Part shown: positions 25,124 through 63,874 of the stretch, piece after piece
Position numbering within the stretch: position 1 is the stretch's first letter
Layout of the letters: each line of letters begins with the position of its first letter
From: Candidatus Ruthenibacterium merdavium
GTDB taxonomy: Bacteria > Bacillota > Clostridia > Oscillospirales > Ruminococcaceae
Assembly: GCA_019119935.1 (NCBI GenBank)
Contig: DWWA01000037.1
Span: 51,752 to 115,751, forward strand
Length of the DNA: 64,000 nt
Direction: 5' to 3'
Made by a program: the position numbers and the translations under genes
Notes under the pieces: model-generated
Told to the model about the DNA's origin: nothing
Database searches by the model: none
Seen by the model: the letters and a program-made list of their open reading frames with translations, nothing else

Positions 25124-26584
25124 TCAGCAGTTCGGAAGCTCCGCGTTAGATAGGCAGTTTTGAGGTGTTCTGCCTTCGATCAAATGCTCGCCGTCGGAAT
25201 ATCCTTCTTCGGAATCTTTCAGCTCTTTTGCAAGCAAACGGCGCAGTTCTTCAATACGGCCTGCATACTGCGGGTTGTTGATGGCGTTATGGGTTTCATA
25301 CGGGTCTTTGTCAAGATCAAAATACTGATACTCCGCACGCTGGTTCAGCCAAACAAATTTATCGTGCTTTGTCACAATAAACTGGCTGGAGAAGCGGTTG
25401 AAGAAAAAGGCATGCTCGCCGTGCAGATAAGTACGCTTGACGCCGCGCAGCATGCTTTCGCCGTCCAAATGTGCAGGAATCGGCGCGCCCGCAAGGTCTA
25501 ATAAAGTAGGCATCACGTCACGCAGCTCCACAAGGGAATCGTCTGTTACGCCGACCTTGCCAAGATATTTCTCACTGCCGGACAAAAGCATCGGAATATG
25601 CGCACTGCCGCGATACGGAAGCGCTTTTCTGTTGAAGCCGTGGTCGGAAAGCATTTCGCCGTGGTCAGACGTAAAGATGATAACAGTATCCTCCATTAAG
25701 CGGTGCTCCTCAAGCGCAAGCAAAATCCGTCCGATTTGATGGTCCACATGGGTAATGCACGCATAATAGCCCACCTGCTGCTGTCGAATCAGCTCCGGGT
25801 CGGACGGGCCGGTGCAGGAATTGTAAATGCGTCCATTCTTCTCTAAGGCCGCTTCGTCGTTCCAATCGCCGCGCACCGGGGGACGTAAATTTTTGTGTTC
25901 GTACAAATTAAAATAATGCTGCGGGGCGTCATAAGGCGCGTGCGGCCGCACAAAGCTCGCCATCAGGAAAAACGGCTGGCGCGGGTCGCGGCGGCGCAGA
26001 AAATCAATCGTGCGCGAAGCCACCCAGTTGGTGGGGTGATATTTCTCTTCGTAAGGCCACGGACGCGCTGTCCATCCGTTGCAGTCCATACCGGTGTCCT
26101 TCACATCACACTCAATGCCCTTTTCGTTTTTCAGCCAATAGAAGTAGTCATCTGCCACCAGCTGATTTTCCCCGTAGGCAACACCGGGCCCGCGGTATTG
26201 GTGCAGGCAGCCGTCGTGCAGTTCTACGTGATGAAAGCCCAGATAATTGCGCAAGGGGTGCACATGCATTTTTCCGACACACTCGGTATAATAGCCCGCT
26301 TTGGCAAGCTCTCCGGCCATGGTGCAGCCGTAGTTCCAGTCTACACGGTCTTCATAGCCCACTCTTCCCGTGTGGCGCTGGCTCAGGCCCGTGTGCAGAA
26401 TGGCGCGGGCAGGCACACAGGTGGGGCAAGACGAATAGGCATTCGGAAATACAATTCCCCGCGCTGCCAAAGAATCGAGATACGGTGTTTTTACATCGGG
26501 ATGCCCGGCATATCCGGTGCAGTCGCCGCGCATTTCATCCACCATGATAAAAAGAATATTCGGACGCTTGTTCATTTCGGTCAT
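25124..26584 (-). CDS. sulfatase (type I, Cys-type formylglycine motif)
   Basis: 'NILFIMVDEMRGDCTGYAGHPDVKTPYLDSLAARGIVFPNAYSSCPTCVPARAILHTG' (C-x-P-x-R), 'IFTSDHGEMLSDHGFNRKALPY'. Confidence 0.93.
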   Translation of the reverse strand: MTEMNKRPNILFIMVDEMRGDCTGYAGHPDVKTPYLDSLAARGIVFPNAYSSCPTCVPARAILHTGLSQRHTGRVGYEDRVDWNYGCTMAGELAKAGYYTECVGKMHVHPLRNYLGFHHVELHDGCLHQYRGPGVAYGENQLVADDYFYWLKNEKGIECDVKDTGMDCNGWTARPWPYEEKYHPTNWVASRTIDFLRRRDPRQPFFLMASFVRPHAPYDAPQHYFNLYEHKNLRPPVRGDWNDEAALEKNGRIYNSCTGPSDPELIRQQQVGYYACITHVDHQIGRILLALEEHRLMEDTVIIFTSDHGEMLSDHGFNRKALPYRGSAHIPMLLSGSEKYLGKVGVTDDSLVELRDVMPTLLDLAGAPIPAHLDGESMLRGVKRTYLHGEHAFFFNRFSSQFIVTKHDKFVWLNQRAEYQYFDLDKDPYETHNAINNPQYAGRIEELRRLLAKELKDSEEGYSDGEHLIEGRTPQNCLSNAELPNC

Positions 26585-31976: not shown

Positions 31977-33038
31977 TTACGCTTTGTTTTTGTACATTTC
32001 TTCGTAGTACTTCATATAGTCGCCGGAGGTGACGCGCTGCATCCACTCCTGGTTCTCCAAGTACCAGTCGATGGTTTTCACAATGCCCACTTCAAAGGTC
32101 GTTTCGGGGTACCAGCCCAGCTCGTCCTTAATTTTGGTCGGGTCAATGCCGTAGCGGCGGTCATGACCCAAACGGTCGGCAACATACTGAATCAAATCTT
32201 CGCTGATGCCGTCATCCTTCAAACGGTCGTGCAGCTGTGCAATAATCGTTTTCACGATGAAGATATTGGGACGCTCGTTGTGGCCGCCCACGTTGTACAC
32301 TTCGCCGTCGCGGCCGCCTTCCGTCACCATGTCAATGGCCTTGCAGTGATCCTCTACATACAGCCAGTCGCGCACGTTCATGCCATCGCCGTAAACGGGC
32401 AGCTTCTTGTGGTTCTTCACGTTGTTGATCATCAAGGGGATCAGCTTTTCGGGGAACTGGTACGGGCCGTAGTTATTCGAGCAGCGCGTGATGTTCACAG
32501 GCATGCCGTAGGTGTCGTGGAAGGCCATAACAAACATATCGGCGCTGGCCTTCGAGGAGGAATACGGGCTGTGCGGGCACAGCGGAGTTGTTTCCATGAA
32601 GTAGCCTTCGTCACCCAGCGAGCCGTATACCTCGTCGGTGGAAACCTGCACATACTTTTTGCCCTCGGCCCAAACGCCGTCTTTCAGCCATGCATTTTTG
32701 GTGCATTGCAGCAGGTTCACCGTGCCGAGCACGTTCGTTTCCACGAAGATTTCGGGGTTGGTGATGGAGCGGTCAACGTGGCTCTCTGCGGCAAAGTTGA
32801 TGACATAGTCAAAGTCATACTTTTCAAACAGGCTCGTTACCAATTCGCGGTCGCAGATATCGCCCTGTACAAAGACGTGGCGGGAATCCCCCTCAACGCC
32901 TTTCAGGTTTTCGAGGTTGCCGGCATAGGTCAGCTTATCCAGGTTGACAAGCAGAATGTCGTCATACTTTTTCAGCATATAGTAAACAAAGTTGGAACCG
33001 ATAAAGCCGGCGCAGCCGGTAATCAAATATTTTTTCAT
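31977..33038 (-). CDS. rfbB: dTDP-glucose 4,6-dehydratase
   Basis: 'MKKYLITGCAGFIGSNFVYYMLKKY...FAAESHVDRSI...VSTDEVYGSLG...PYSSSKASADMFV.A...YGMPVNITRCSNNYGPYQFPEKLIP'. Confidence 0.98.
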   Translation of the reverse strand: MKKYLITGCAGFIGSNFVYYMLKKYDDILLVNLDKLTYAGNLENLKGVEGDSRHVFVQGDICDRELVTSLFEKYDFDYVINFAAESHVDRSITNPEIFVETNVLGTVNLLQCTKNAWLKDGVWAEGKKYVQVSTDEVYGSLGDEGYFMETTPLCPHSPYSSSKASADMFVMAFHDTYGMPVNITRCSNNYGPYQFPEKLIPLMINNVKNHKKLPVYGDGMNVRDWLYVEDHCKAIDMVTEGGRDGEVYNVGGHNERPNIFIVKTIIAQLHDRLKDDGISEDLIQYVADRLGHDRRYGIDPTKIKDELGWYPETTFEVGIVKTIDWYLENQEWMQRVTSGDYMKYYEEMYKNKA

Positions 33039-33079
33039 GAGGATACTCCTTTTATTCCGTTTGTATTCACATTCCCGGT

Positions 33080-34003
33080 TTATTGCTGGCGGGCGCGCCA
33101 CTGCTCAAAAAAGCTTTCAAGTGCCTCACGCCAGGGGCGCATTTCGTTGCCGACGGTGCACGCGAGCATGCGGTTTTCCAAAGCGCTCCACGCCGGACGG
33201 CGTGCCGCTTCGGGGTGGGCGGCGGCGTACTCGTCGCTGGTGCACGGGGCTACCTCTGCACCAACGCCGGACAAACGCATGATTTCCACGGCGAAGTCAT
33301 ACCACGAGCAAACACCTTCGCCCGTGCAGTGATACACGCCGTACTCTTTGCTGACTACCATCTTTAATAAATGATGTGCCAAATCCTCGGCGTTGGTGGG
33401 GTTGCCGAGCTGGTCGTTTACAACCGTCAGCTTGCCGAACTTTTTGCCGGCATTCATCATGGTAAACACAAAGTTTTTGCCCGTTAAGCTATACAGCCAA
33501 GCTGTGCGCACCACAAAAGAGCGGCTGCAGAACTGGCGCACGTACTCTTCGCCCAGCAGTTTCGTCTGGCCGTAGGCGCTCACAGGGCAGGTGCCGCACG
33601 CTTCGTCCAGCGCCACGCCGCCGTTGTCAACTCCGCTGAATACATAGTCTGTGGAAACGTGAATCAGCTTTGCGCCGATTTCCTCAGCGGCCATCGCCAG
33701 GTTGCGCGGGCCGAGTGCGTTCACGCGGAAGGCGTCCTCGCGGTGGATTTCACATCCGTCTACGTTTGTATATGCCGCACAGCAGATGATCACATCCGGC
33801 TGATGATGGCGCACAAAGGCCGCCACTTCATGGCGGTTGGTGATATCCAGCTCGCGCATGCCTTCCACACCGATGTCGGTGCAAAGTACGGTAGCGCGGC
33901 GCAGTTTTTCAGGAATTTCTCCAAGGGCGCTTTTCCCCTGCTCCAGCTGGCGGCGCAGCTCGGTGCCAAGCTGGCCGGCCGCTCCGGTAATCAAAATTTT
34001 CAT
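33080..34003 (-). CDS. rfbD: dTDP-4-dehydrorhamnose reductase
   Basis: 'MKILITGAAGQLGTELRRQL...ADVIICCAAYTNVDGCE...HVSTDYVFSG...YGQTKLLGEEYV'. Confidence 0.96.
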   Translation of the reverse strand: MKILITGAAGQLGTELRRQLEQGKSALGEIPEKLRRATVLCTDIGVEGMRELDITNRHEVAAFVRHHQPDVIICCAAYTNVDGCEIHREDAFRVNALGPRNLAMAAEEIGAKLIHVSTDYVFSGVDNGGVALDEACGTCPVSAYGQTKLLGEEYVRQFCSRSFVVRTAWLYSLTGKNFVFTMMNAGKKFGKLTVVNDQLGNPTNAEDLAHHLLKMVVSKEYGVYHCTGEGVCSWYDFAVEIMRLSGVGAEVAPCTSDEYAAAHPEAARRPAWSALENRMLACTVGNEMRPWREALESFFEQWRARQQ

Positions 34004-34026
34004 GCACTGCCTCCTATTTTTCATGC

Positions 34027-34066
34027 AAAAAAGGGAGCGCACCTTTGAGAGTTCAGCGCGCTCCCG
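34027..34066 (-). terminator. intra-operon hairpin/terminator between rfbA and rfbD
   Basis: Minus strand GGGAGCGC ... GCGCTCCC followed by TTTTTT. Confidence 0.65.
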
Positions 34067-34075
34067 AATCAAACA

Positions 34076-34963
34076 TCAATAGCGGAGCTTTCCTTCCGCT
34101 ACACGGCGCAGGTGCTGACCGTAGGGGCTTTTGCCGTAGCGCTCTGCGCTTTCCAGCAGCTTTTCTTTGGAAATCCAGCCGTTTTTAAAGGCAATTTCTT
34201 CCGGAGCGGAAATTTTAATGCCTTGGCGTTTTTCCACCATGCGCACAAAATCGGCAGCATCCACAAGGCTGTCCATCGTGCCGGTATCCAGCCACGCAAA
34301 GCCGCGGCCGAGCAGCTGCACATCGAGGTCGCCTTTTTGCAGATACAAATCGTTCAAGGTGGTGATTTCCAGCTCACCGCGCGCGGAGGGCTTTACCTGT
34401 TTTGCCAGCTCCACAACACGTTTGTCGTAGAAATAAAGGCCGGTAATGGCATAGTTCGATTTCGGCTTCTGCGGTTTTTCCTCTACGCTGATCACCTTTC
34501 CGTCGCCGTCAAACTCCACGATGCCGAAACGCTCCGGGTCGTTCACATAGTAGCCGAACACGGTTGCGCGGCCGCGCTGCTCGGCATTCTCTGCCGCGTT
34601 GCGCAGAATGCGGGAAAAGCCGTTGCCGTAAAAGATGTTGTCGCCGAGCACCATGGCGCAGCAGTCGTCGCCGATGAACTCTTCACCCAGCAAAAATGCC
34701 TGTGCTAAGCCGTCGGGGCTGGGCTGCACTTTGTAGGAGAACTTTACGCCGTACTGGCTGCCGTCGCCCAGCAAATCTTCAAAGCGCGGCGTGTCCTGCG
34801 GGGTGGAAATGATTAAAATATCCTGAATCCCCGCCAGCATCAGCGTAGAAAGCGGATAGTAAATCATGGGTTTGTCGTAAACAGGCAAAAGCTGTTTCGA
34901 CGTCACCATCGTGAGGGGGTACAGTCTTGTTCCGGCTCCGCCGGCCAAAATAATCCCTTTCAT
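34076..34963 (-). CDS. rfbA: glucose-1-phosphate thymidylyltransferase
   Basis: '[46 protein letters not shown]'. Confidence 0.98.
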
Positions 34964-35074: not shown

Positions 35075-35857
35075 TCAAAACAGGCGAAACCCCCATTTTT
35101 TCCAATAGCGGAACATAGATCTCACCTGCATCCAAAAGTTTTTCCACTTGCGGTTTGCGTCGCGGTGCCACGCATGGGTCACCTCGGTCACGGGCACATA
35201 CATCACTTTTCCGTGCTTTTGCGCCTTGCGCGTGATGTCGGCGTCCTCCACATACATGAAATACCCCTCGTCAAACCCGCCGATTTTCGCAAACACATCG
35301 CTGCGCATGACAAAAAAGCATCCCGTGCAGAAATCCACTTCCCTCGGCACGGACAAATCTTCATCCAGCATCAAGTAGTGGCGTTCAATCTTTTTGAGAA
35401 ACGGCAAAGGAACCTGACGGGACAGCAGCGCCGCAAAAGTGGGGCGGCGCTTGGCGGTAAACTGCTCCTCACCGCTTGGAAAGCGCAGACGCGGCGTTGT
35501 CATAACAACATCGGGATGTTCATCCATCCATGCACAAAGGGCAGAAATGCTGTCCTCACTTAACTCAATATCAGGATTAATCACCGCATGATAGCGGCTG
35601 TTGAGGCGCGGCAGCACTTGGTTATGGCCGCTGCCAAACCCGATATTCTTAGGCAGACGAATCACTTCGGCAGCGCCGCCGAAATCGGTTTGTTCCAAGC
35701 GCGCACCCGTGCCGTCAGGAGAATCGTTGTCAATCAAAAACAGCTGCAACGCTACACCCTGCGTGTGCTGCAAGACACTGCGCGCCGCCTGCACCGCCTC
35801 TTCATATCCGTTATAAGTGACGATGCTCGCCGTAACCGGTGTTTTTTGCACAACCAT
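35075..35857 (-). CDS. family 2 glycosyltransferase (rhamnosyltransferase-like)
   Basis: 'TASIVTYNGYEEAVQAARSVLQHTQG..LQLFLIDNDSPDGTG...LPKNIGFGSGHNQVL...HAVINPDIELSEDSI...DFCTGCFFVMRSDVFAKIGGFDEGYFMYVEDADITRK'. Confidence 0.93.
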   Translation of the reverse strand: MVVQKTPVTASIVTYNGYEEAVQAARSVLQHTQGVALQLFLIDNDSPDGTGARLEQTDFGGAAEVIRLPKNIGFGSGHNQVLPRLNSRYHAVINPDIELSEDSISALCAWMDEHPDVVMTTPRLRFPSGEEQFTAKRRPTFAALLSRQVPLPFLKKIERHYLMLDEDLSVPREVDFCTGCFFVMRSDVFAKIGGFDEGYFMYVEDADITRKAQKHGKVMYVPVTEVTHAWHRDANRKWKNFWMQVRSMFRYWKKWGFRLF

Positions 35858-35955
35858 CCTCCTTATCCTATATTTCTGCTTATTATACCATACTGACACT
35901 TTTTTGTAAATAAACACCTGCCTGTGCGTTCATACTAATGGCGGGTGATCTAAAG

Positions 35956-36366: not shown

Positions 36367-36561
36367 AGCGGTATTGAATGATTGACGCATCGTGCCAAAG
36401 TTTTCCGTGATATATCCCGAAAGCGCAGTTCATCCTTTGAGGATTGGCTGCGCTTTTCAATTGTTCTTACAAAACTGCTCCAGCGCACTCTGTCATGCAA
36501 AATCATGTCTTGTTTTCTTAAAAATTTCACATGTGACGGCGTCCGCAGAGATATTTTTTGA

Positions 36562-36601
36562 TTGTTCAACTATTTCTAATATGTTATACTGGTAACGTTA
36601 C
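36562..36601 (+). promoter_or_regulatory. promoter TTGTTC-N17-TATACT with overlapping palindrome GTAACGTTAC
   Basis: TTGTTC 36562-36567; TATACT 36585-36590; perfect 10-bp palindrome 36592-36601 at the expected +1. Confidence 0.55.
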
Positions 36602-36702: not shown

Positions 36703-38655
36703 ATGGATGAAAATTCCACACTGATTCAGCGGTTTGAGCAAGCAGTTTCCGCGTTTGACAGCGGCGATGCTTATTCCGCTTTGAATGAGCTTGTCGCTTT
36801 GTATCAAGAGGGCTTTCACCGTGAAGAAATTCTCACTTTTTTGAATGAGGTTTCGTATGAGCCGAACGCTGCCGAGATGAAAGCAAATTTTGAAAAAAAC
36901 TGCGCGGCACTGGCTCACTATCCCTTCGTACAAGGCTTCACTCCGCCGCCGTTTGAGGCGCTGTCTTTCCGAATTTACCCGGTTAGCGCAGAAGAGTTTT
37001 TTGTTTTCAATCCCAGTGCCGAAACGTTCGGTGAACGGAGGGTCTTTGAGAAAGATCCTTCTTTTGATTGCTGTTTAAAATATTTTGACGAACAGCGTGT
37101 TTTTCAAAATGAAACAAACGTTTCAAAACTTGCTTACCTAAACCGCAATATTCGCGCCAGTGAAGCAATCGGCTTTGAAAACCACATTTATCTGCATTAC
37201 GACGAACCCGACCGGTTTTATGCCCTGCTCTTGATAAGCGATTGGAGCAATTTGCTGGCCGAGAAAAAATTTGTCGTGTGCATTGGAAAAGATTCGTTTT
37301 TGAATCCCGAAGATTTTTGCGCGCGCTTTCAGGTGTCGTATGAAAACTGCACGCCCCAGCCGCCCAGCATTTCGGAAATCAGCCGTATGATTTTCGGCTG
37401 GAAAATTGCCAACGTGTCGGGAACTTCTTTCCTTGCCGATATCCTTGACTATCATCCCCGGCTTCTGACAATTCCTGATTGCTTTTTCAACGATTTTTAC
37501 CCTTACTACACAAAATACCTGCAGGGAAAAAAGACAAAAGAAGTGGTAAAGCATCTTTGTCAGCTCGATCACACAGCGCCCGAAAAATCACTTTTTCATG
37601 CTGTTACCACAAGCCAATCCTTGAGTGCTGCGAATCTTTCCGAAAATGTTCTTGAAGAATTAAACCGCGTTGATGCAAATGAGCTTTTAAACAAAACCGG
37701 CGAGCTTCTCGCTGATTGCGAAATTCCGACTGCCCGCGAGTGGATTACAGCAATTTATTTAGCTTTTTCGCTTTGCCACGGGCGCACCTTCACACAGCGC
37801 GTGACCCCCGCAGTCTTTATGTATCCGCACGACGATATGTTCTTTCTTGCCGGAGTAGAACGGGAACGCGTTAAGTTTTACCTCGATACGGTATGTTCTT
37901 TCGACGATTACAAAGCAATTGCCATTATTCGTGATCCCGTAACACAAGCGGGCAGCGTGATTCGCTTTATGACCGAAACGCATCCGGAAGCTAAAAACGA
38001 GAAGGGCGAACGTGTTTTTTATCCCTTTTACAGCTTGGCTTTCGGCTCGTTGGTTCCCAAAGATTATTTTTTCCGCAATGACCATGCCCTATGGAAACAA
38101 ATTCGCGTGGTACGATTCGAAGATTTAAAGCTGAATCCGAAGGCAACGCTGAAAAGTCTAACAGACTTTTTGGATCTCACAGACTGCGATACGCTTTATA
38201 AAACGACATGGTGCGGCCTTTCCCGCGCCGGCGTTTCGACCGACGGCAGCTCGTTTGAAGGGTTTGACCCGGCCCCTATTTATAATTCACACGCCAAGTA
38301 TCTCAGTGTATTTGATAAATACCGCATTGAACTGCTTTTGGCCAATTTGATGAAATATTACGGGTATCGCGCTGTTTATTACGATGGTCAACCGTTTTCG
38401 GAAGAGGAGAAATACACCTTAATGAAATTTCCTTTCCGGTGCGACGATATTCCCTTTTTAGCTACGGAAGAGTCCAAACAGCCTCTTTTAGACCTTGCAT
38501 TCCAACTTGTACGCATGTCTGTGATGTTTTATTCTAAGTGTGAACACACACCGGTAAAAATCCCGGATTTTCCGTTTGAATTTGAGCCAATCCCTTGGCT
38601 GAAACCGGATGAAGAGCTGCTTGTTCAACCTTTATATGAAACCAGAACACAGTAA
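36703..38655 (+). CDS. 650-aa protein with sulfotransferase-like domain and a novel N-terminal region
   Basis: PAPS-binding-like 'NVSGTSFLADILDYHP' and 'AIAIIRDPVTQAGSVIRF', plus 'IRVVRFEDLKLNPKATLKSLTDFLDL'. The N-terminal ~220 aa was not recognised. Confidence 0.75.
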   Translation: MDENSTLIQRFEQAVSAFDSGDAYSALNELVALYQEGFHREEILTFLNEVSYEPNAAEMKANFEKNCAALAHYPFVQGFTPPPFEALSFRIYPVSAEEFFVFNPSAETFGERRVFEKDPSFDCCLKYFDEQRVFQNETNVSKLAYLNRNIRASEAIGFENHIYLHYDEPDRFYALLLISDWSNLLAEKKFVVCIGKDSFLNPEDFCARFQVSYENCTPQPPSISEISRMIFGWKIANVSGTSFLADILDYHPRLLTIPDCFFNDFYPYYTKYLQGKKTKEVVKHLCQLDHTAPEKSLFHAVTTSQSLSAANLSENVLEELNRVDANELLNKTGELLADCEIPTAREWITAIYLAFSLCHGRTFTQRVTPAVFMYPHDDMFFLAGVERERVKFYLDTVCSFDDYKAIAIIRDPVTQAGSVIRFMTETHPEAKNEKGERVFYPFYSLAFGSLVPKDYFFRNDHALWKQIRVVRFEDLKLNPKATLKSLTDFLDLTDCDTLYKTTWCGLSRAGVSTDGSSFEGFDPAPIYNSHAKYLSVFDKYRIELLLANLMKYYGYRAVYYDGQPFSEEEKYTLMKFPFRCDDIPFLATEESKQPLLDLAFQLVRMSVMFYSKCEHTPVKIPDFPFEFEPIPWLKPDEELLVQPLYETRTQ

Positions 38656-38716
38656 AGAACATATTTGCTGCAAAATTATTCATTAACCCTTTATCATTCT
38701 TATTCAGAGGCACTTT

Positions 38717-39202
38717 ATGAAACACGAAACCGGAACCGTATATTTTTTCACAGGCCTTTCGGGGGCCGGAAAAACCACGCTCGGCAGCTTATTTTACGAG
38801 CGGTTAAAATCTACAAAACCTAACGTGGTATTTTTAGACGGCGACCAAATCCGCCCCGTCTTCGGTGAAGACAGCGGCTACACTTATGAAGACCGTTTAA
38901 AATGGGCAGGGCGCATTTTCCGCGTATGCAAAATGCTTTCAGAGCAAGGCATCGATGTCATCTGCTGCAGTATTGCCATGTTTTCATCGGTTCGGGAATG
39001 GAACCGCGCAAACATTCCCGCCTACAAAGAGATTTACATCCGCGTGAAAAAGGAAACGCTCATGAGCCGCAACCAAAAAGGGCTGTACACAAAAGGACAC
39101 AATGTCGTGGCATCGACCTTCCCTTCGATGAGCCGCAGTCGCCGGACATCATCATCCAAAATGACGGTTTGGAAACGCCGCAGACGCTTGTGGAACGCTT
39201 AG
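38717..39202 (+). CDS. APS-kinase-like (CysC) domain, reading frame broken near 39109
   Basis: 'FFTGLSGAGKTTLGSLFYERLK..NVVFLDGDQIRPVFGEDSGYTYEDRLKWAGRIFRVCKMLSEQGIDVICCSIAMFSSVREWNR'. The CysC C-terminus 'GIDLPFDEPQSPDIIIQNDG' is in the +2 frame. Confidence 0.8.
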   Translation: MKHETGTVYFFTGLSGAGKTTLGSLFYERLKSTKPNVVFLDGDQIRPVFGEDSGYTYEDRLKWAGRIFRVCKMLSEQGIDVICCSIAMFSSVREWNRANIPAYKEIYIRVKKETLMSRNQKGLYTKGHNVVASTFPSMSRSRRTSSSKMTVWKRRRRLWNA

Positions 39203-39876
39203 AAGCGGCGCTTTACCACCCTGTTTATGAAAATTCCGTTGACAATGTGGATTACTGGAACCAATACTATAAAAACAAGCTTTGCTCCACACAGCCTTCA
39301 CCGTTCGCACAGTATGTTGCAACCTTGACCGACAGCGGAAAATCTCTCGTCGATTTGGGCTGCGGCAACGGGCGCGATACGGTTTACTTTGCCGGGCTTG
39401 GGCTGCAAGTAACGGGAGTCGACTTATCGGATATCTCGGTGCAGTCTTTGCAGGAGCAAAACATTCCCGGCGCACGCTTTGTCTGCGGCGATTTTGTAAA
39501 CCCGAAAGAAACAGTCGGAGATTCTTTTGACTATGCTTACAGTCGGTTTACCATTCATGCCATCAACGAACGGCAAGAGCGCACTTTCCTGAAAAATATT
39601 TACAGCCGGCTTCGGCCGAACGGTAAATTTTTTATTGAGGTGCGCAGCATCCATGACCCACTGTTCGGAAAAGGGAAAAAGATGGAGCGCAACGCATATT
39701 TTTATGACAACCATTACCGCCGCTTCATTGTGATGGAGGAACTTGTGCAAAGTCTGCAAGAGCAAGGCTTTCAAATTGAATATGCAAAAGAACAGTCCGG
39801 GTTCGCCCCTTACGGAAACGACGATCCTCCTGTGATCCGTATTGTCGCCAAGAAAGCCGCTGTCTCTCACGCCTGA
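39110..39876 (+). CDS. class I SAM-dependent methyltransferase domain, presumably the C-terminal half of the CysC-like gene after a frameshift
   Basis: 'KSLVDLGCGNGRDTVYFAGLGLQVTGVDLSDISVQSLQEQ...FVCGDFV...FDYAYSRFTIHAINERQERTFLKNIYSRLRPNGKFFIEVRSIHDPLFG'. Frame of ORF 38902..39876. Confidence 0.85.
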
Positions 39877-55368: not shown

Positions 55369-56415
55369 TTACCGCTTTGCACCCTTTGAAAGGCAATACA
55401 AAATTTCATCTCCGATTTGGTCGAGCGGAAGCTGCTTGCTCACGCCGCCCATTTTATAGGCTTCCATCGGCATACCGTAAACGACACAGCTTTCACGGTC
55501 TTGGCCAATCGTATACGCACCCGCTTTGTGCATTTTCGTCAGGCCGCGCGCACCATCGGCACCCATACCGGTTAAAATAACGCCAATCGCCTTATCGCGC
55601 GCCACGTCTGCAACAGAGTCAAACATGACATCCACAGAAGGACAGTGGCCGCTCACACGCTCACCCTTCATGCTGCGAACATAATAACCCTTCGCATCCT
55701 TTTTCAGCGTCAAATGATAATCGCCGGCCGCAATAATGATTTGGCCCGTCATCACGCGGTCCATATCCTGTGCTTCCTTCACCTTCATTTTGCAAATGCG
55801 GTCTAAACGCTGTGCATACAAATTGGTGAAGTTCGCAGGCATGTGCTGAACAATGATAATGCCGGGTGTCGTCGGAGGCAGATTTTTCACCACCTCAATA
55901 ATGGCTTCTGTGCCGCCTGTCGAAGCACCGATGGCGATGAGCGTATCCTGCGGGGCTTTAATCGGCGGAGCCAAACGCTGCACTAAGGAGGGCTGGCGCA
56001 CAATGGCGCCCGGCCGCCTTACACGCGCCTGAGCAGCCATTTTCACTTTGCTGCGCAGATTCTGCAAAAATGCATCGACGCTTCCGGGAACATCCGCAGA
56101 AGGCTTGTTTACAAAATCAACAGCGCCCGCCTCAAGCGCGTCCAGCGCATTCATGGGAAGCGAGGTAACCACAATAACGGGAATCGGCTTGATGGGCATC
56201 AGTTTTTTCAAAAACTCAATGCCGTTCATCTTGGGCATTTCCACGTCAAGCGTGATAACATCGGGTTTTAACTGCTCAATTTTCCGCATTGCGTCTTCGG
56301 GGTCCATTGCACTGCCGACAACGGACAGCGCCGGATCTTCCGAAAGGCTCATGCGCAGTTTCGTGCGAAACAGAATGGAATCATCAACTACGAGAACTCT
56401 CAGAGGTTGATTCAT
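55369..56415 (-). CDS. cheB: protein-glutamate methylesterase/response regulator
   Basis: 'RVLVVDDSILFRTKLRMSL...VITLDVEMPKMNGIEFL', 'LIAIGASTGGTEAI', 'VILTGMGADGARGL'. Confidence 0.98.
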   Translation of the reverse strand: MNQPLRVLVVDDSILFRTKLRMSLSEDPALSVVGSAMDPEDAMRKIEQLKPDVITLDVEMPKMNGIEFLKKLMPIKPIPVIVVTSLPMNALDALEAGAVDFVNKPSADVPGSVDAFLQNLRSKVKMAAQARVRRPGAIVRQPSLVQRLAPPIKAPQDTLIAIGASTGGTEAIIEVVKNLPPTTPGIIIVQHMPANFTNLYAQRLDRICKMKVKEAQDMDRVMTGQIIIAAGDYHLTLKKDAKGYYVRSMKGERVSGHCPSVDVMFDSVADVARDKAIGVILTGMGADGARGLTKMHKAGAYTIGQDRESCVVYGMPMEAYKMGGVSKQLPLDQIGDEILYCLSKGAKR

Positions 56416-57269
56416 TTCAAAAGTCCTCCTTTATTTGGCTGCTTTTGATAAATGGCAGGCATTAAGTAAGTATACTTAGAATTTGCCCTATCAACGCTCT
56501 CTGAATGACCGATAAAAAGATAACCGCCGGGAGCCGTAGCATTATAAAATTTCTCCACCGTCCGGTTTGTTGTTTCCGCGTCAAAATAAATCATGACGTT
56601 TCTGCAAAAAATAATATCAAACGGCTTCTTGTAAACAAAGGGATCCATCAAGTTGAAAATACGGAAAACGACCTCTTTGCGAATTTTATCACACACCTGA
56701 TAATCACCATTGGGAAGCTGCCGCATATATTTTGTTTTCCATGCAGCAGGCAGCCCCTTCACGCTTTCGGCAGGATAAATGCCCTCTCTCGCCTTCGTCA
56801 GAACATTGGTAGAAATATCGGTTGCCAAAATCGTGGTATCCCATTGCGGTTTCCGCGGGCCGAAGTATTGGTCCATTACCATGGCAATGTTATAAGCTTC
56901 CTGTCCTGCGGAGCACCCCGCGCTCCAAATACGCAAATCTCCTCGTCTTGTCTTTTCAAGCTGCGGCAGCGCCACTTTCATCAAAAACTCAAAATGCTCG
57001 TTTTCGCGTGCAAAATAAGAATGATTCGTTGTGATTTTATTTAAGAACTGGTGCATTTCTTCTCCGCTTGAATCACGGAACAAACGTTCCATGTACTGCG
57101 AAAAATTAGACATTCCCTTTGCACGAATGGTGTGAGAGAGCCGCCCCTCAATCAGCTGGCGCTTTCTGCTCAAGTCAATGCCGTATTTTTTATAAACAAA
57201 TGCAACCAAATCATTAAATTCTTTGTCGGTAAGCTTGATAAGTCCCTGCGTATCCGTTACTATGGGCAT
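56412..57269 (-). CDS. cheR: chemotaxis protein methyltransferase
   Basis: 'LRIWSAGCSAGQEAYNIAMVM...IIFCRNVMIYFDAET...PGGYLFIGHSES'. Confidence 0.97.
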   Translation of the reverse strand: MPIVTDTQGLIKLTDKEFNDLVAFVYKKYGIDLSRKRQLIEGRLSHTIRAKGMSNFSQYMERLFRDSSGEEMHQFLNKITTNHSYFARENEHFEFLMKVALPQLEKTRRGDLRIWSAGCSAGQEAYNIAMVMDQYFGPRKPQWDTTILATDISTNVLTKAREGIYPAESVKGLPAAWKTKYMRQLPNGDYQVCDKIRKEVVFRIFNLMDPFVYKKPFDIIFCRNVMIYFDAETTNRTVEKFYNATAPGGYLFIGHSESVDRANSKYTYLMPAIYQKQPNKGGLLK

Positions 57270-57299
57270 ATCACGCAGCTCCTTTCTTGTCTGATGCTG

Positions 57300-57788
57300 T
57301 CATTGTGCAACAATGGTTCCAAAATCATTGATAAACAGCTTTTCACTGTCAATGTTCAAAATGGTGCAGCCGTCCGTATTCGTTGAAACCGAAGAAATGT
57401 ATTTTTCCGCAATATCACCGGACGGTGTATCGGAAATTTGTGCTTCGGAAATCGTTACAACCTCAGACACGCTGTCCACAATTAAACCGATGTGAATATC
57501 ACTGATGTCAATCACAACGATGCATGTTTTATCGTCGTATTCACGCTCGGGCAAGCCCAGTTTCAAGCGCATATCAATGACGGGAATTACCTTGCCGCGC
57601 AAGTTGATAATTCCTTTAATATAAACAGGAAGATTGGGCAGGTGAGTCGCCGTCTGCACAGCGATAATCTCAATGACATACCGCAACTCCACACTGTAAA
57701 GCATATCTTGAATATAGAACAGCAGATAGCGATCCTCCAGCTCGGAGTGTTGATTCTGCTCTGCGTTCAACATAATTTCTTCCGCCAT
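57300..57788 (-). CDS. cheW: chemotaxis coupling protein CheW
   Basis: 'YLLFYIQDMLYSVELRYVIEII...LPNLPVYIKGIINLRGKVIPVIDMRLKLGLP'. Confidence 0.95.
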   Translation of the reverse strand: MAEEIMLNAEQNQHSELEDRYLLFYIQDMLYSVELRYVIEIIAVQTATHLPNLPVYIKGIINLRGKVIPVIDMRLKLGLPEREYDDKTCIVVIDISDIHIGLIVDSVSEVVTISEAQISDTPSGDIAEKYISSVSTNTDGCTILNIDSEKLFINDFGTIVAQ

Positions 57789-57804
57789 ACGTTTGCCTCC
57801 TACC

Positions 57805-59925
57805 TTAAAGATTATTAATCAGCGCGTTGGCATCCAAAATCAAGCTGACGGTACCGTCGCCCAGGATACTGCATCCCGAAAGCCCCTGCGACTTCAAATC
57901 ATATTTATTGAAGAAAGTCGGGAAGGGTTTTACCACTACTTGGTACTCGCCGAGCAGCTCATCCGCAAAAATGCACGCGCTGGAGGAACTGTTTTCCACT
58001 TGAATCAAAATGCCGTCCATAATATCGGAGTGCTTGGCGTCAATTTGATACATCTTATGCAGTCTCAAAATCGGCAGACACTCGCCGCGCACCATAATCA
58101 TCTCGGTGCCGTTCGCATTGTGGATAATCTGCTCCGGACCGGTCGGCTTAAACGACTGCTTGATGGAGGTAATCGGCAAAGTGAACACGGTGTTGCCCAC
58201 CGCAAGGTTCATGCCGTCCACGATGGCCAGCGTCAGCGGAATTTTAATGGTGAAGGTTGTGCCTTTGCCAAACTCGCTGTGAATGGTGATGCTGCCGCCC
58301 ACTTTTTCAATGTTCTTGCGCACAACATCCATGCCGACGCCGCGTCCGGAATACTCCGTCACTTCCTTGTTGGTAGAAAAGCCCGGAAGCATAATCATCT
58401 GGAAGATTTCTTTGTCGGTGTATTCGCTTTCCGGCTTGGTCAAAAGGCCGTTTTCACGCGCTTTTGCCAAAATCTTTTTCGGGTCAAGCCCGCAGCCGTC
58501 GTCGGCTACGTCAATGTGAATTTCACCGCCCACATTGCGCGCAGACAGCGTCACTTTACCCACAGCGGGTTTACCCTTTTTCACACGCTCGTCAGGATGC
58601 TCGATGGCGTGGTCCATCGAGTTGCGGATCATGTGCATAAACGGATCGGCAATGGCGTCATTGATGGTTTTATCCACCTCTGTGTCGCCGCCGAACGTAA
58701 CAAGCTCTGCTTGCTTATCAAGCTTTTTGGCCATATCACGCACAATACGCGACATTTTTTGGAACGTACCGTGCAGCGGCACCATGCGGATGCTCATCAC
58801 GACATCCTGCAATTCGTCGGTCAGCTTGCGCAGCTCGCGGATCGACTTTGTAAAGTGGTCCAAACGCAAACCGTTCAAATCAGGGTCGCGCGCCACCATG
58901 GACTCCGCCGTTACAATCTCGCCCACCAAATCCATCAAGCGGTCAAGCTTGGACTGGTTCACGCTGATCAAGCTTTGCTTAACGCCAACTTTGGGAGAAG
59001 ACACAGGCGTTCCTTTTTGAACTGCTTCCGCACCGGAGGATACAGGCTTCGGCGCGCTGGCGGGAGCGGCAGGCTTTGCACTTCCGGCTTCAGCCGCCGC
59101 AGGAGCACTCGGCGCCTCCTGGGTTTCGGGTTCCTCGGCTTCCACCTCGTACGACTTGATGTTCAGCGATTCCTCAATCGTCTTGAGCACCTCGTCCTCG
59201 GAGTCCGCAGGATGACAAATCAAAAGCAAGCCGTTTTTGATAATTTCGGCGCTCAGGTTAGAATCGGTTTCCGGCTTTGCGGGAATCGATTCCACACTGG
59301 TGCAGCAGCCTTTGAGCTGAGAAATGAGCATAAAGGCGCGCATATTTTCCATCTGGCAGCCATCGTCAAAGTGAACGCGAACGCGCAGGGTACCGGTGCC
59401 TGCCGGCGCAGCAGACTGCTCTTGCTGTACGGGCGCAGCTGCTTCAGGAGCCGCAGGTGCAGCGGCGGGAGCGGCGCTTTGCGTTTGGGCAGATGCCTCA
59501 GCTTCGCCTTTCATAATGGCCGCTTGAACATGCAGCTGCTCCACCAGTGCGCTGGGGTCAGCCGGCGTATAACTGGAAGTTTGCAGCGCGGCAATCTCCT
59601 TGCGCAAAAAGTCGGATGTCTGGAACACCAAGTCAAAAATCGCGTCAAACACCAAATCCAATTTGGAAGGATCTTCTCGAATAATGTAAAAGACGTCTTC
59701 TACCGCATGCGCCAGCGTAGACATTTCCGCAAACTCCAGCATGGCCGCAGAACCCTTAATGGTGTGTGTGATGCGGAAAATCATATTGATATTGTCTTCG
59801 CTGATGTTCTTTGCCTTTTCAGACTCAAGCAGGATTTCATCCAGCTCGTCCAACAGTCCGCTGGTTTCGTAAATAAATGCCTCTACCAGGGATTCCATTC
59901 CGGAATCGATCTCGCTCATAAACAT
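57805..59925 (-). CDS. cheA: chemotaxis histidine kinase CheA
   Basis: HPt 'FRITHTIKGSAAMLEF', 'LMDLVGEIVTAESMV', 'HMIRNSMDHAIEHPDERVKKGKP', 'GRGVGMDVVRKNIEKVGGSI'. Confidence 0.98.
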   Translation of the reverse strand: MFMSEIDSGMESLVEAFIYETSGLLDELDEILLESEKAKNISEDNINMIFRITHTIKGSAAMLEFAEMSTLAHAVEDVFYIIREDPSKLDLVFDAIFDLVFQTSDFLRKEIAALQTSSYTPADPSALVEQLHVQAAIMKGEAEASAQTQSAAPAAAPAAPEAAAPVQQEQSAAPAGTGTLRVRVHFDDGCQMENMRAFMLISQLKGCCTSVESIPAKPETDSNLSAEIIKNGLLLICHPADSEDEVLKTIEESLNIKSYEVEAEEPETQEAPSAPAAAEAGSAKPAAPASAPKPVSSGAEAVQKGTPVSSPKVGVKQSLISVNQSKLDRLMDLVGEIVTAESMVARDPDLNGLRLDHFTKSIRELRKLTDELQDVVMSIRMVPLHGTFQKMSRIVRDMAKKLDKQAELVTFGGDTEVDKTINDAIADPFMHMIRNSMDHAIEHPDERVKKGKPAVGKVTLSARNVGGEIHIDVADDGCGLDPKKILAKARENGLLTKPESEYTDKEIFQMIMLPGFSTNKEVTEYSGRGVGMDVVRKNIEKVGGSITIHSEFGKGTTFTIKIPLTLAIVDGMNLAVGNTVFTLPITSIKQSFKPTGPEQIIHNANGTEMIMVRGECLPILRLHKMYQIDAKHSDIMDGILIQVENSSSSACIFADELLGEYQVVVKPFPTFFNKYDLKSQGLSGCSILGDGTVSLILDANALINNL

Positions 59926-60678
59926 TCACCCTCTTCATTTCATTTCGCGCAAAAAAAGCCACGCCGAAACAAGCTTGTCAAAAAACAAAGTTCCACGCGA
60001 CTGCCTTATACGCGTAAGCAGATAATACCTCTGTATTTTTATTATCAAACGATTTAACGAAAATACAAGCCTTGCGGTCGATTTTTCTATTTTCATCTCG
60101 TCGATGTGCCGAGAACCGCAGCGCGAACGCAGCAGCCCGCAGTTTGAAAAATAAGCGGTTATTTTACCCTGCCTCGGCCCATTTCAAAGCATGTTTTCTC
60201 ATTCTGTCATCGAAAAAAATCTTTTGACAATTGTCACAGTCGCACATGGATTCGCAGCAAAAAAACGCCCTTGTGCCGCCGCTTTTAAGCGCGCAAAAAA
60301 CACAAGCGCCGCACTCCGAAGCGAGTTTTCCACAGCGGCTGTTCTCACAGCTTTGCAGACCTGTCTTTTATTCATTTTACTAGAGATGGGGGTATAAAGC
60401 AACTTGTTTGTAAACTTTTCGCTTCTTTTTGTCCGATTACCCAAAATTTGGCACTTCGCGCAGAAAGTGCTTGCTAAGCCTCAAATTTTGTCTTAACACC
60501 ATGCTTTTTATCAGGTTTTGTGTTTTAAGATTTCCATTATACCCTATTGAAATGAAAAAAAAATGATTTTTGTCTTCTTTAGTCTTGAAATTTTCGTTTT
60601 ATGTGAGATAACTTATTTATAGGGTATCATGATAACCCTGCGTTCTGCGACAATTTTAGTTGTGAAGGAGATTCGGCA

Positions 60679-62202
60679 TTGGCAGACTTACTCAAAGTAA
60701 TGACACCGGTGATCAATAAGAATCAGCCGGTTCAGCCGAATATGCCTACGGATGCTCCGGGCATATTGAATATTCAAAACACCGAAAAGGTGATTCAAAC
60801 TCATAATCAAACCAACCTCAGCCAAGAGCATAACAACGGGCTTGAGAATTCCAGCGCTCCGGCAATGCTTCTCAGCCTTTTAAAAGATCCGGCTGTCGCT
60901 GCGTCTTACTTGAAAAACATCTCGTTTCTCGAAGAAATTTTCAAGCTGCTTCCCGCGAACAACCAATCGATGACGGCAGAAATTGAACAGCTCTTCGGCG
61001 GTATGATGATGAGTGAGCAGGAAATCGCACCTGAAATGATGCGCCAAGGCGAAACCGCCACCATGCTTCGCGGTGAGCTGTTTGATTTTCTGCGTCAGAT
61101 TAACGAAAAGGCGGCGCCGCGAAGCGACCTGCAAGCCGCTATCGCAAACTTTTTGCGCGCGGCCAACGGTCTGCTTTGCCGCGAGGATATTCAGGGAGCC
61201 GTTTACAACAATCTTTTGTTTTTGAAAAAATCGCTCCATTCCAGCAAGGATTTATCCGCCAAACTTGACAGCCTTCTTGCGCGCTTATCGGGCGAAACGG
61301 ACGGCGCACAAAGTGCCGACGGGCTCAAAAACGGCGCTTCTTCTTTTCAGCAGGCCTTAGCCGGCGCAAAAGATTTGTCCTCGTTTAAACAGGCCATGCA
61401 AAGCGGCCAGGATTTTCAGGCGCTCAAGCGGGAAATTCTCTCATTTTTAACGGATGTGGAGTCGAGTATTCTTTACAACTCTAAAATGGATAAAGTGCTT
61501 TCCATTTTGAAGTATAACCTTTCCCGGTACAGTACCGGAGAGGATTATTTCCACGAATCGGCCTTTTTCCTTCGCCAGCATTTAAGCGGCCCTCAGCGCC
61601 GTGTATTTGCGGGTTTGGTAGACGGTTTTCTCGCCAATTTGCAGGAGGGGCGCGTTCACCCTGAGTTAAAGCAAGGCATGTCGCGCGTCATGGAAACGCT
61701 CACGAAACTGCTGGGCATTCAGGTGGCGAACGAACATCTTTCCGCCGGTGATGAAGCAAAGGTGGAGCAAATTCTGCACAGTCTGCTTTCCTCCCCGTGC
61801 AACTTTACACCTCTTTTGCATTTTATCATCCCGGTTGACCATCTCGGCTCCCGTGCGTTTGCCGAAATTTGGGTCAACCCCGACAGTGATGAGAAAGATA
61901 TGCCCAAAGGCGCCGGCAAAGGCGTTCATTTCCTGCTGGTGATCGACTCGGAAGGTGTCGGACGCTTTGAGGCCGATGTATATGTGCACGATAAGGACAA
62001 AGTCGTTGATTTTCAGCTGTTCTGTCCGCCGGGATTGGAGAACGTCTTTTCTCAGATGTCCAAACCTTTGGCACAGCTTTTTACTTCGATGGATTACCGT
62101 GCGGGCTTTATGCGCTTTGATGCTCTGGAGCGCCCGCGCTCGCTGATGGAAGCGTTTAAGTCGCTTCCCTACAAAAGGATGGGTTTGGATGTCAAGGTTT
62201 GA
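60679..62202 (+). CDS. hypothetical protein, YlqG/FliK-like flagellum-associated position
   Basis: 507 aa, divergent from cheA, stop overlapping a FlhB C-domain-like ORF. Assignment rests on synteny. Confidence 0.6.
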   Translation: MADLLKVMTPVINKNQPVQPNMPTDAPGILNIQNTEKVIQTHNQTNLSQEHNNGLENSSAPAMLLSLLKDPAVAASYLKNISFLEEIFKLLPANNQSMTAEIEQLFGGMMMSEQEIAPEMMRQGETATMLRGELFDFLRQINEKAAPRSDLQAAIANFLRAANGLLCREDIQGAVYNNLLFLKKSLHSSKDLSAKLDSLLARLSGETDGAQSADGLKNGASSFQQALAGAKDLSSFKQAMQSGQDFQALKREILSFLTDVESSILYNSKMDKVLSILKYNLSRYSTGEDYFHESAFFLRQHLSGPQRRVFAGLVDGFLANLQEGRVHPELKQGMSRVMETLTKLLGIQVANEHLSAGDEAKVEQILHSLLSSPCNFTPLLHFIIPVDHLGSRAFAEIWVNPDSDEKDMPKGAGKGVHFLLVIDSEGVGRFEADVYVHDKDKVVDFQLFCPPGLENVFSQMSKPLAQLFTSMDYRAGFMRFDALERPRSLMEAFKSLPYKRMGLDVKV

Positions 62203-62563
62203 TAAAAAGGCCGTCGCCTTAAAATATAACGCCGAGCAAGACCTCGCGCCGGTGGTTATCGCTTCGGGATACGGTGAAGTTGCGGAGAATATCATTGATA
62301 TTGCCGAACAGCGCGGAATTCCCGTTTATCGTGATGACAGCGCTGCGTCGATGCTCTGCATGCTTGAAATCGGCACAACGATTCCGCGCGAAATGTATGA
62401 GCTGGTGGCTGCCATTTACCTGCAAATTTTAAAAACGGCCTCTCAGCTTCAAGGCGCGCCTTCGCCCGTGCCTGCGCGCCACGAAACGGCTCCTCAAGCC
62501 GCGGCAATTGCTCCTCAGCCGAATGAGCCGCAGCCCGGTGAACCGCAAACACAGTCAACGTAA
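62189..62563 (+). CDS. stand-alone FlhB C-terminal domain-like (EscU/YscU/FlhB family, YlqH-like)
   Basis: 'FDKKAVALKYNAEQDLAPVVIASGYGEVAENIIDIAEQRGIPVYRDDSAASMLCMLEIGTTIPREMYELVAAIYLQIL' matches the FlhB C-domain fold signature. Confidence 0.88.
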   Translation: MSRFDKKAVALKYNAEQDLAPVVIASGYGEVAENIIDIAEQRGIPVYRDDSAASMLCMLEIGTTIPREMYELVAAIYLQILKTASQLQGAPSPVPARHETAPQAAAIAPQPNEPQPGEPQTQST

Positions 62564-62611
62564 TACTCTCTCCGGCATTCGCCCAGAGGATTGTATTAAG
62601 GAGGAAATAAT

Positions 62612-63874
62612 ATGGATAATTGTATTGCACGCCAGCCGATCATCGGTAAGGACGGGAAAATTGCCGCGTATGAGCTGCTTTATTTCCAGAACAGCCAAAC
62701 GGTTGACAGCCCGCATGATTTTCACACCGCGCAGGCCATCGTGCAGTTTTTCAACCAACTGGACGAGTCCTCTTTCTTAGACGGGCGCGACGCGTTTCTC
62801 AGCTTTACGCCGAATTTGCTGATGCAGAATATTCCGCGCGTGTTCGACCCTCATAAGCTTGTCATTCAGGTAGAGGACAGCGTACTTGTGCACCCCGTTG
62901 CACGCATGATGCTTCAGCGCTACAAAAAACAGGGCTACCGGCTTTCTCTGTCCGGCTTCCAGTTTAACAGCCGCTACATGAATATTCTTTCTTTAATTGA
63001 TATTTTGAAAATCAATTTTGAGGGAATTTCTCAAAAGAAGCTGGATACTTATCTGTCCGTTGCAAAAGAGTTTAACCTCAAGCTGGCAGCTTATCACATT
63101 GATACGCCGGAAGCGCGCGCACTGGCGGAAAGCAATAACTTTGACTACCTGCAAGGTACCGACGTTGCAGACATTTCACAAAGCAAAGCTCAGAAAAACC
63201 CGAAGCATCTGCAATCGAACTTCTTCCGCTTGATGGCTGCGGCAACGCGCGAGGAGCCGGACTTGGAAGAGATTGCCGAATTGATCGGCATGGATGTTAC
63301 TTTGACATTCTCTTTGCTGAAAATGGTAAACTCTGCTTACTTTGCAATTCCTAACCGCGTAAAAGATATTAAGCAGGCGCTCACCATTTTAGGTTTGGGA
63401 CAGCTGCGTCAGTGGATTTACCTGCTGAGCTTCGGCGGCGAGGGCGACTTCACCGACGAGATTATCAAAATCTCGTTCCAGCGCGCCGTTTTCTGCCAGG
63501 CTTTGTCGCAGGAAATTCCCGACTTCCCGCTCGCTTACAGCGAAGCTTACATGCTTGGTATGTTTTCTATTTTGGACCGCTTGCTGGATGTTCCCTTGGA
63601 GCAGGCGCTGAAATCTTTGCCCGTTTCCGATGAACTCAAAGACGGTCTTATAAAGAAAGAGGGCATGTGCGGTTCGCTGTATCGCTTAACCACTGCGTAT
63701 GAGCAGGGTGAATGGCCGCGTGTGACACGCATTGCACAGGAGCTGAACCTCACAATGGAAACCATCTCCCGCAAATATTTGGAAGCGGTTGATTACGTTA
63801 CCTCTACTTGGAACAGCCTGATGGAACCGTTTGACGGCAGCGTGCAAACCACAGAAAAAGAAGCTGACAACTGA
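62612..63874 (+). CDS. EAL-like/HDOD domain signalling protein
   Basis: N-terminal EAL-like 'CIARQPIIGKDGKIAAYELLYF' and HDOD 'FRLMAAATREEPDLEEIAELIGMDVTLTFSLLKMVNSAYFAIPNRVKDIKQALTILGLGQLRQW'. Confidence 0.9.
   Translation: MDNCIARQPIIGKDGKIAAYELLYFQNSQTVDSPHDFHTAQAIVQFFNQLDESSFLDGRDAFLSFTPNLLMQNIPRVFDPHKLVIQVEDSVLVHPVARMMLQRYKKQGYRLSLSGFQFNSRYMNILSLIDILKINFEGISQKKLDTYLSVAKEFNLKLAAYHIDTPEARALAESNNFDYLQGTDVADISQSKAQKNPKHLQSNFFRLMAAATREEPDLEEIAELIGMDVTLTFSLLKMVNSAYFAIPNRVKDIKQALTILGLGQLRQWIYLLSFGGEGDFTDEIIKISFQRAVFCQALSQEIPDFPLAYSEAYMLGMFSILDRLLDVPLEQALKSLPVSDELKDGLIKKEGMCGSLYRLTTAYEQGEWPRVTRIAQELNLTMETISRKYLEAVDYVTSTWNSLMEPFDGSVQTTEKEADN

Follow-up and report, generated by a model that had tools for sequence, protein, structure and literature searches.

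A sulfotransferase-like gene and a CysC-like kinase-methyltransferase gene of Candidatus Ruthenibacterium merdavium related to flagellin-linked modification loci

Introduction

Do genes that resemble a sulfotransferase and an adenylyl-sulfate kinase sulfate a cell surface, or do they modify it in another way? This question is raised by a locus in a 64,000-nucleotide stretch of contig DWWA01000037.1 of Candidatus Ruthenibacterium merdavium (the window), in which the gene for a 650-residue sulfotransferase-like transferase precedes sequences for a CysC-like kinase and an S-adenosylmethionine (SAM) methyltransferase. In the initial annotation the simplest account was that 3'-phosphoadenosine 5'-phosphosulfate (PAPS) is made and used to sulfate a surface glycan or protein, with additional methylation; the alternative was a kinase acting on cytidine diphosphate (CDP)-phosphoramidate. 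Our analysis supports, with moderate confidence, the reading that the two genes form a module whose relatives are flagellin-linked modification systems of this order, with the phosphorus-based mechanism proposed below. The parts of the locus are as follows.

36562..36590, plus strand: promoter-like TTGTTC-N17-TATACT upstream of the transferase gene (inspection of the sequence; weak evidence)
36703-38655, plus strand: open reading frame (ORF) of the sulfotransferase-like transferase, 650 amino acids
36703..37365, plus strand: N-terminal helical module of the transferase, about residues 1-220
37366..38655, plus strand: predicted sulfotransferase-fold catalytic region (Pfam core, residues 239-493, at 37417-38181)
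38717..39108, plus strand: CysC-like (PRK05541-type) P-loop kinase, N-terminal ~130 residues
39106..39110, plus strand: frameshift point, one base fewer than in the related contig L008
39109..39876, plus strand: C-terminal tail of the kinase, then a class I SAM methyltransferase domain (Methyltransf_25 at about 39349-39624)

Results

Homologous loci adjoin flagellin genes

A profile of the C-terminal part of the transferase was searched in 394 genomes of the order and gave 15 matches in 11 genomes. The window itself and a truncated gene in G429 were left out of the neighbourhood count, and 13 loci in nine genomes remained. All 13 have a flagellin gene directly upstream of the transferase gene and a kinase gene of the same type directly downstream. 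The gap between the flagellin and transferase genes is 51-184 bp in the nine loci measured, and in two loci at contig starts the C-terminus of the flagellin is visible in the correct frame. The window transferase is homologous over its full length, with 24-28% identity to 12 members and 75% to the transferase of L008 (a 3-kb contig whose end falls inside the methyltransferase), and it too has the kinase downstream. A scan of genome contigs for the transferase found L008 as the only relative, and there were no matches among plasmids, phages and viral contigs. The truncated gene in G429 (L034, contig C21, 2551-3090, minus strand) encodes a product that is 59% identical to the window transferase over 161 residues; no flagellin is detectable in that genome.

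The genes that follow the kinase fall into four types. In type (a) (G585:C11), flagellin, transferase, kinase, methyltransferase, glutamine kinase, amidohydrolase, cytidylyltransferase and PHP-family genes form one run, which is a complete gene set for O-methyl phosphoramidate (MeOPN); its glutamine kinase scores 908 bits with the family model (cut-off 501). Type (b) (G571:C40 and C31) carries genes for a LicC-like nucleotidyltransferase, an aminotransferase resembling 2-aminoethylphosphonate transaminase, phosphoenolpyruvate (PEP) mutase, phosphonopyruvate decarboxylase and a PHP protein. The ends of contigs C40 and C31 correspond to the two halves of a single PEP mutase and presumably belong to one locus. 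PEP mutase and decarboxylase genes are also present in G506, upstream of flagellin (TIGR03297, 442 bits, cut-off 312.5). Type (c) (G611, G406, G585:C99 and G585:C63) has a gene resembling IspD or ribitol-5-phosphate cytidylyltransferase (TarI-like) after the kinase, accompanied in G611 and G585:C63 by RmlA- and RmlB-resembling genes. In type (d) (G571:C29, G601, G650 and G553) a kinase-methyltransferase fusion is followed by a PHP gene and no further donor gene. Similarity of the kinase and the methyltransferase places the window and L008 in type (d), and both G476 loci stop at a contig edge. Every identified donor cassette contains a cytidylyltransferase-like gene. The PHP neighbour has as its best model a 3',5'-nucleoside bisphosphate phosphatase (188 bits, below the cut-off of 400) and matches PDB entry 2yb1 with an E value of 7e-35.

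The kinase lies outside the APS kinase clade

The kinase starts 62 bp downstream of the transferase gene and matches the APS_kinase Pfam family (E 3e-24) as well as the NCBIfam subfamily PRK05541 (135.8 bits, cut-off 127). A tree was built from 26 kinases, including six CysC sequences, for five of which CysN or CysD is annotated in the same record. The six CysC sequences form one clade (100/100), and the window kinase and all cassette kinases lie on the other side of the tree. The motifs DGDNVRHGLN..DLGF and FISP.R of kinases acting on adenosine 5'-phosphosulfate (APS) are replaced by DGDQIRPVFGEDSGY and CSIAMFSSVREWNR in the window kinase, whose truncated ORF scores 88 bits with TIGR00455 (cut-off 138.7). 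The kinases from loci with the complete MeOPN set fall on the window kinase's side of the tree and have the motif [ST]I[AS]M..VR.WNR in common with it.

The ATP sulfurylase that would supply APS was also sought. In the window's genome, the only one searched for Sat, neither Sat (PF01747) nor CysD (TIGR02039) was found, although the controls for both worked; 12 further genomes, most of which have this kinase, contain no CysD above the cut-off. The initial annotation had seen no ATP sulfurylase in the window, and for Sat and CysD this extends to the whole genome. Because Sat and CysD are missing and the kinase falls outside the APS-kinase clade without its signature, sulfation by the window locus is not supported.

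Donor genes elsewhere and in the window's genome

The kinase, methyltransferase, glutamine kinase, amidohydrolase and cytidylyltransferase genes occur together at six loci of bacterial chromosomes and plasmids, among them Azospirillum and deltaproteobacterial plasmids on which the kinase is annotated as adenylyl-sulfate kinase. The methyltransferase gene adjoins the kinase gene in each of the six. On two Azospirillum plasmids (L055, 6030-8570; L065, 7030-9546) the kinase is the C-terminal domain of a ~840-residue protein with a long N-terminal part that has no Pfam match; these proteins are possibly transferases fused to the kinase. Within the window's own family, G227 encodes two more distant sulfotransferase-like proteins together with kinase, methyltransferase, glutamine kinase, amidohydrolase, cytidylyltransferase and PHP genes, a set about 18-25 kb from a flagellin gene. 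The best family of this amidohydrolase is gamma-glutamyl-CDP-amidate hydrolase (111 bits, below the cut-off of 250).

The alternative offered in the initial annotation, a CDP-phosphoramidate-type kinase, has come much closer: the window kinase shares the tree side and motif of the six MeOPN-cassette kinases and has a methyltransferase next to it, albeit a fused one of another subfamily. MeOPN itself does not follow from this. Two members of the enzyme set were sought in the window's genome: glutamine kinase is absent, and the hydrolase has only a weak match in a 527-residue ORF (E 6e-4). A simple MeOPN locus was rejected, and the locus was not filed as MeOPN, because glutamine kinase is a defining member of the set; a phosphonate donor was likewise rejected for this strain, since PEP mutase is absent.

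The kinase-methyltransferase gene is frameshifted as assembled

The initial annotation described the kinase as joined to a methyltransferase. Both domains follow the transferase, but in the window's assembly they are split between two ORFs in different frames (38717-39202 and 38902-39876). The equivalent of 39106-39110 in L008 has one base more and is read through in one frame, and the fusion is continuous in G571:C29, G601, G650, G553 and L008. Compared with L008, the window has 33 synonymous and two non-synonymous changes before the break and 24 and five after it. The ratio of non-synonymous to synonymous substitution rates (dN/dS) is about 0.01 before the break and 0.05 after it, and 0.14 for the transferase. 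Because this indicates strong purifying selection on both sides, the break is either an assembly error or very recent; while it stands, the window copy may be inactive. Phase variation was rejected as its cause, as there is no homopolymer tract at the site (GTCGTGGCATC). When 36703-38652 is compared with 299-2248 of L008, dS is about 1.95 for the C-terminal part of the transferase, against about 0.3-0.55 for the kinase-methyltransferase gene. The higher synonymous divergence suggests allelic exchange of the transferase.

The transferase and its N-terminal module

The 650-residue protein was initially annotated as sulfotransferase-like behind an unrecognised N-terminal region, and both statements held up. 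Two Pfam families match above their cut-offs, Sulfotransfer_3 over residues 239-493 with 29.5 bits (cut-off 27) and Sulfotransfer_1 with 25.4 bits (cut-off 22), whereas residues 1-220 match none. R410, R471-F-E-D474 and K476 are invariant in the family, with R410 and R471-D474 seen across 16 members in the alignment; the curated match is thus accompanied by the 3'-phosphate-binding Arg and the RFED motif of the sulfotransferase fold superfamily. In PAPS sulfotransferases, a loop that usually has a basic residue holds the 5'-phosphosulfate. At this loop position no family member has a Lys or Arg (NVSGTS in the window, HNGGDF and ANSG elsewhere).

Usable AlphaFold confidence is limited to residues 1-70, all helices, with a predicted local distance difference test score (pLDDT) of 53-75. 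A profile of the N-terminal module resembles designed helical repeats in the PDB (E 0.46, not significant). The module is 32% identical over residues 3-109 to an 866-residue protein of G205, the first ~110 residues being common to both. That protein, of the sulfatase superfamily, is flagellin-adjacent; the common module suggests acceptor recognition, and we consider it a probable acceptor- or flagellin-targeting part. In the G205 locus (L011, contig C1, 9208-14623), a flagellin gene is followed by the gene for the 866-residue protein, which joins the module to a sulfatase/phosphodiesterase-superfamily domain, and then by a nucleotidyltransferase-aminotransferase fusion; this is possibly another type of flagellin phospho-modification locus. 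Upstream of the window transferase, a 20-nucleotide block at 36553-36572, adjoining the promoter-like element, is identical in L008.

Genomic surroundings

As initially annotated, the locus lies beside a deoxythymidine diphosphate (dTDP)-rhamnose and glycosyltransferase cluster. The neighbouring features are as follows.

31977..34963, minus strand: dTDP-rhamnose genes RmlB, RmlD and RmlA
35075..35917, minus strand: GT2-family glycosyltransferase (Pfam)
25124-26584, minus strand: sulfatase with N-sulphoglucosamine sulphohydrolase-type C-terminus, about 10 kb from the locus
55369-63874: chemotaxis/motility genes encoding CheB, CheR, CheW, an FlhB C-terminal-like protein and an HDOD protein

The sulfatase probably serves an unrelated carbohydrate desulfation. 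The AT-richness noted in the initial annotation is borne out by a GC profile, with 46.2% GC in the locus, whereas the 10-kb flanks have 53.9% and 55.0%; only eight of 305 windows of the same size are equally low. No match to the locus was found in four genomes of the same genus (G031, G143, G214 and G268), and because of this and its base composition we regard it as an accessory locus. The genome has one Sulfotransfer_3 match and one APS-kinase-like gene (plus two marginal matches), both of them in this locus.

The chemotaxis and FlhB-like genes are on the same contig, 16-26 kb away. Together with FlgK, FlgL and FliD genes elsewhere in the genome, the chemotaxis genes make flagella likely in this strain. 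Contig C6 of this assembly (L081 of G000) carries FliD, CsrA, FliW-like, FlgL and FlgK genes, and the assembly, 97% complete, contains no filament flagellin; its flagellin genes may have dropped out during assembly. Relative to its homologues, the window copy is displaced from flagellin to the dTDP-rhamnose cluster.

Discussion

Proposed mechanism

We infer from known MeOPN chemistry, the cytidylyltransferase-like and PHP genes, the retained R410 and RFED residues and the loop lacking Lys and Arg that the kinase places a 3'-phosphate on a cytidine-linked donor, from which the transferase moves the phosphorus group. The CysC-like kinase would add a 3'-phosphate to CDP-X or CMP-X (CMP, cytidine monophosphate; X, a phosphorus-containing group), giving a PAPS-like compound. 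The fused SAM methyltransferase would methylate the activated group, and the 650-residue enzyme would transfer X to flagellin or to a flagellar or surface glycan, in the window possibly one containing rhamnose. Transfer would release a 3',5'-nucleoside bisphosphate for degradation by the PHP-family phosphatase of complete loci, and the resemblance of the PHP protein to 3',5'-nucleoside bisphosphate phosphatases fits this step. The surface modification with methylation that was initially proposed retains support, with flagellin rather than capsule as the usual neighbour. The type (d) loci, which have no donor genes, suggest that their donor derives from a common nucleotide, conceivably as a methyl-phosphate donor formed from CDP.

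Alternative explanations

Several observations weigh against this module and its mechanism. In the window the kinase-methyltransferase gene is frameshifted; no flagellin gene is present, the only Flagellin_N match in the genome being FlgL beside FlgK; no PHP gene adjoins the locus; and the genome contains no glutamine kinase or PPDK_N match and no PEP mutase. The search for Sat covered this genome alone. The hidden Markov model matches point weakly to the sulfotransferase fold: just five of 16 transferase family members match Sulfotransfer_3 at E<=0.01, and the closest PDB match is the CurM sulfotransferase with an E value of 0.008. The predicted structure of the 650-residue protein, from an alignment with one relative (L008), has a mean pLDDT of 34.

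There are three other explanations. Ordinary sulfation, with the kinase making PAPS from APS, the 650-residue enzyme sulfating a surface glycan or protein and the methyltransferase acting separately, would agree with the Pfam and PDB names (APS kinase and sulfotransferase), with the nearby sulfatase gene and with the Campylobacter jejuni HS:19 cluster of cysDNC and a sulfotransferase, for which such a role was proposed (PMC8743553). We consider it very improbable given the Sat and CysD genes missing from this genome, the separate kinase clade without the APS-kinase signature, and the phosphoramidate or phosphonate genes that homologous loci hold instead. True MeOPN synthesis in the window's strain, with donor genes missing from the assembly or divergent elsewhere, is also improbable, if less so. 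Relatives of the kinase do occur in MeOPN cassettes, and an assembly that has flagellar genes and no detectable filament flagellin must lack some parts; however, the genome has no PPDK_N or glutamine-kinase match, glutamine kinase is not found in G571 and G553 and gives fragment matches only (~41 residues) in G601 and G650, all four of which have intact fusions, and the fused methyltransferase has no BLAST match to that of the MeOPN cassettes at E<=1e-3. An acquired locus that lost its flagellin linkage and is now a pseudogene is the least unlikely of the three, yet still unlikely. The frameshift, the low GC, the lack of matches in the four genomes of the same genus and the truncated homologue in flagellin-free G429 would fit such a dead remnant. 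The purifying selection on the transferase and on both sides of the break, which is open in L008, speaks against it, and we continue to favour the flagellin-related module.

Comparison with known systems

The closest precedent, which the window locus would resemble in its workings, is the C. jejuni MeOPN capsule pathway. The product of Cj1415-Cj1418 is CDP-phosphoramidate 3'-phosphate, which probably serves Cj1421 and Cj1422 as the donor for transfer; the methylating enzyme is not assigned in the Campylobacter capsule, and knockouts of Cj1419 and Cj1420 were without change (PMC11800397). CDP-phosphoramidate 3'-phosphate is a structural analogue of PAPS. It shares with the mechanism proposed here a CysC-like kinase that gives a 3'-phosphorylated CDP donor and a methylated phosphorus group, and in relatives of the window locus one gene run also includes glutamine kinase, a glutamyl-CDP-amidate-hydrolase-like gene and a cytidylyltransferase. 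Here, in contrast, the acceptor side is flagellin-linked, the methyltransferase is fused to the kinase, and glutamine kinase is missing from the window's genome.

The Type A flagellin modification of Clostridioides difficile (cd0240-cd0244) also places a phospho-group, proposed to be CDP-activated, on flagellin with the involvement of a SAM methyltransferase (PMC10714395). It differs in having no CysC-like kinase and a TagF-like rather than sulfotransferase-like transferase, and its product is N-methylphosphothreonine on N-acetylglucosamine. Cell-surface tailoring with CMP-2-aminoethylphosphonate (PntC; PMC6697681) uses a cytidine-activated phosphonate, and in G571 and G506 phosphonate genes lie next to those of the transferase and kinase; PMC6697681 mentions no sulfotransferase, kinase or flagella, and the window's genome is without PEP mutase. 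Clusters of CysND/CysC with a sulfotransferase (C. jejuni HS:19 and Nod factor type) contain the same kinase and transferase superfamilies, whereas the window system has no ATP sulfurylase, a kinase of another clade and motif, and a transferase loop without the usual basic residue. A literature search, with most subscription papers outside its reach, found no sulfotransferase-like/CysC-like module beside flagellin and no description of this system under sulfotransferase, flagellin and phosphonate or phosphoramidate, which is not proof of novelty.

Implications

This gene family probably decorates flagella or surface sugars with phosphorus-containing groups that are unusual and often methylated, drawing on CDP-linked donors and not on sulfate donors. 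The MeOPN gene set known from the Campylobacter capsule is now seen beside flagellin in gut Firmicutes. The methyltransferases that lie by the kinase in the MeOPN cassettes, or are fused to it in the window's type, are candidates for the methylation step, and the transferases point to a candidate fold for the transfer. More tentatively, the chemistry could be modular: a CysC-like kinase would 3'-phosphorylate cytidine-activated groups (phosphoramidate, aminoethylphosphonate, perhaps polyol phosphate or methyl phosphate) that a sulfotransferase-fold enzyme passes to flagellin, and the fused type would make its own donor, such as the methyl-phosphate donor from CDP, with no extra genes. If the proposed function is true, many genes annotated as adenylyl-sulfate kinase or sulfotransferase would neither make nor use PAPS, and flagellin, an innate-immune ligand, would bear unusual phosphorus groups.

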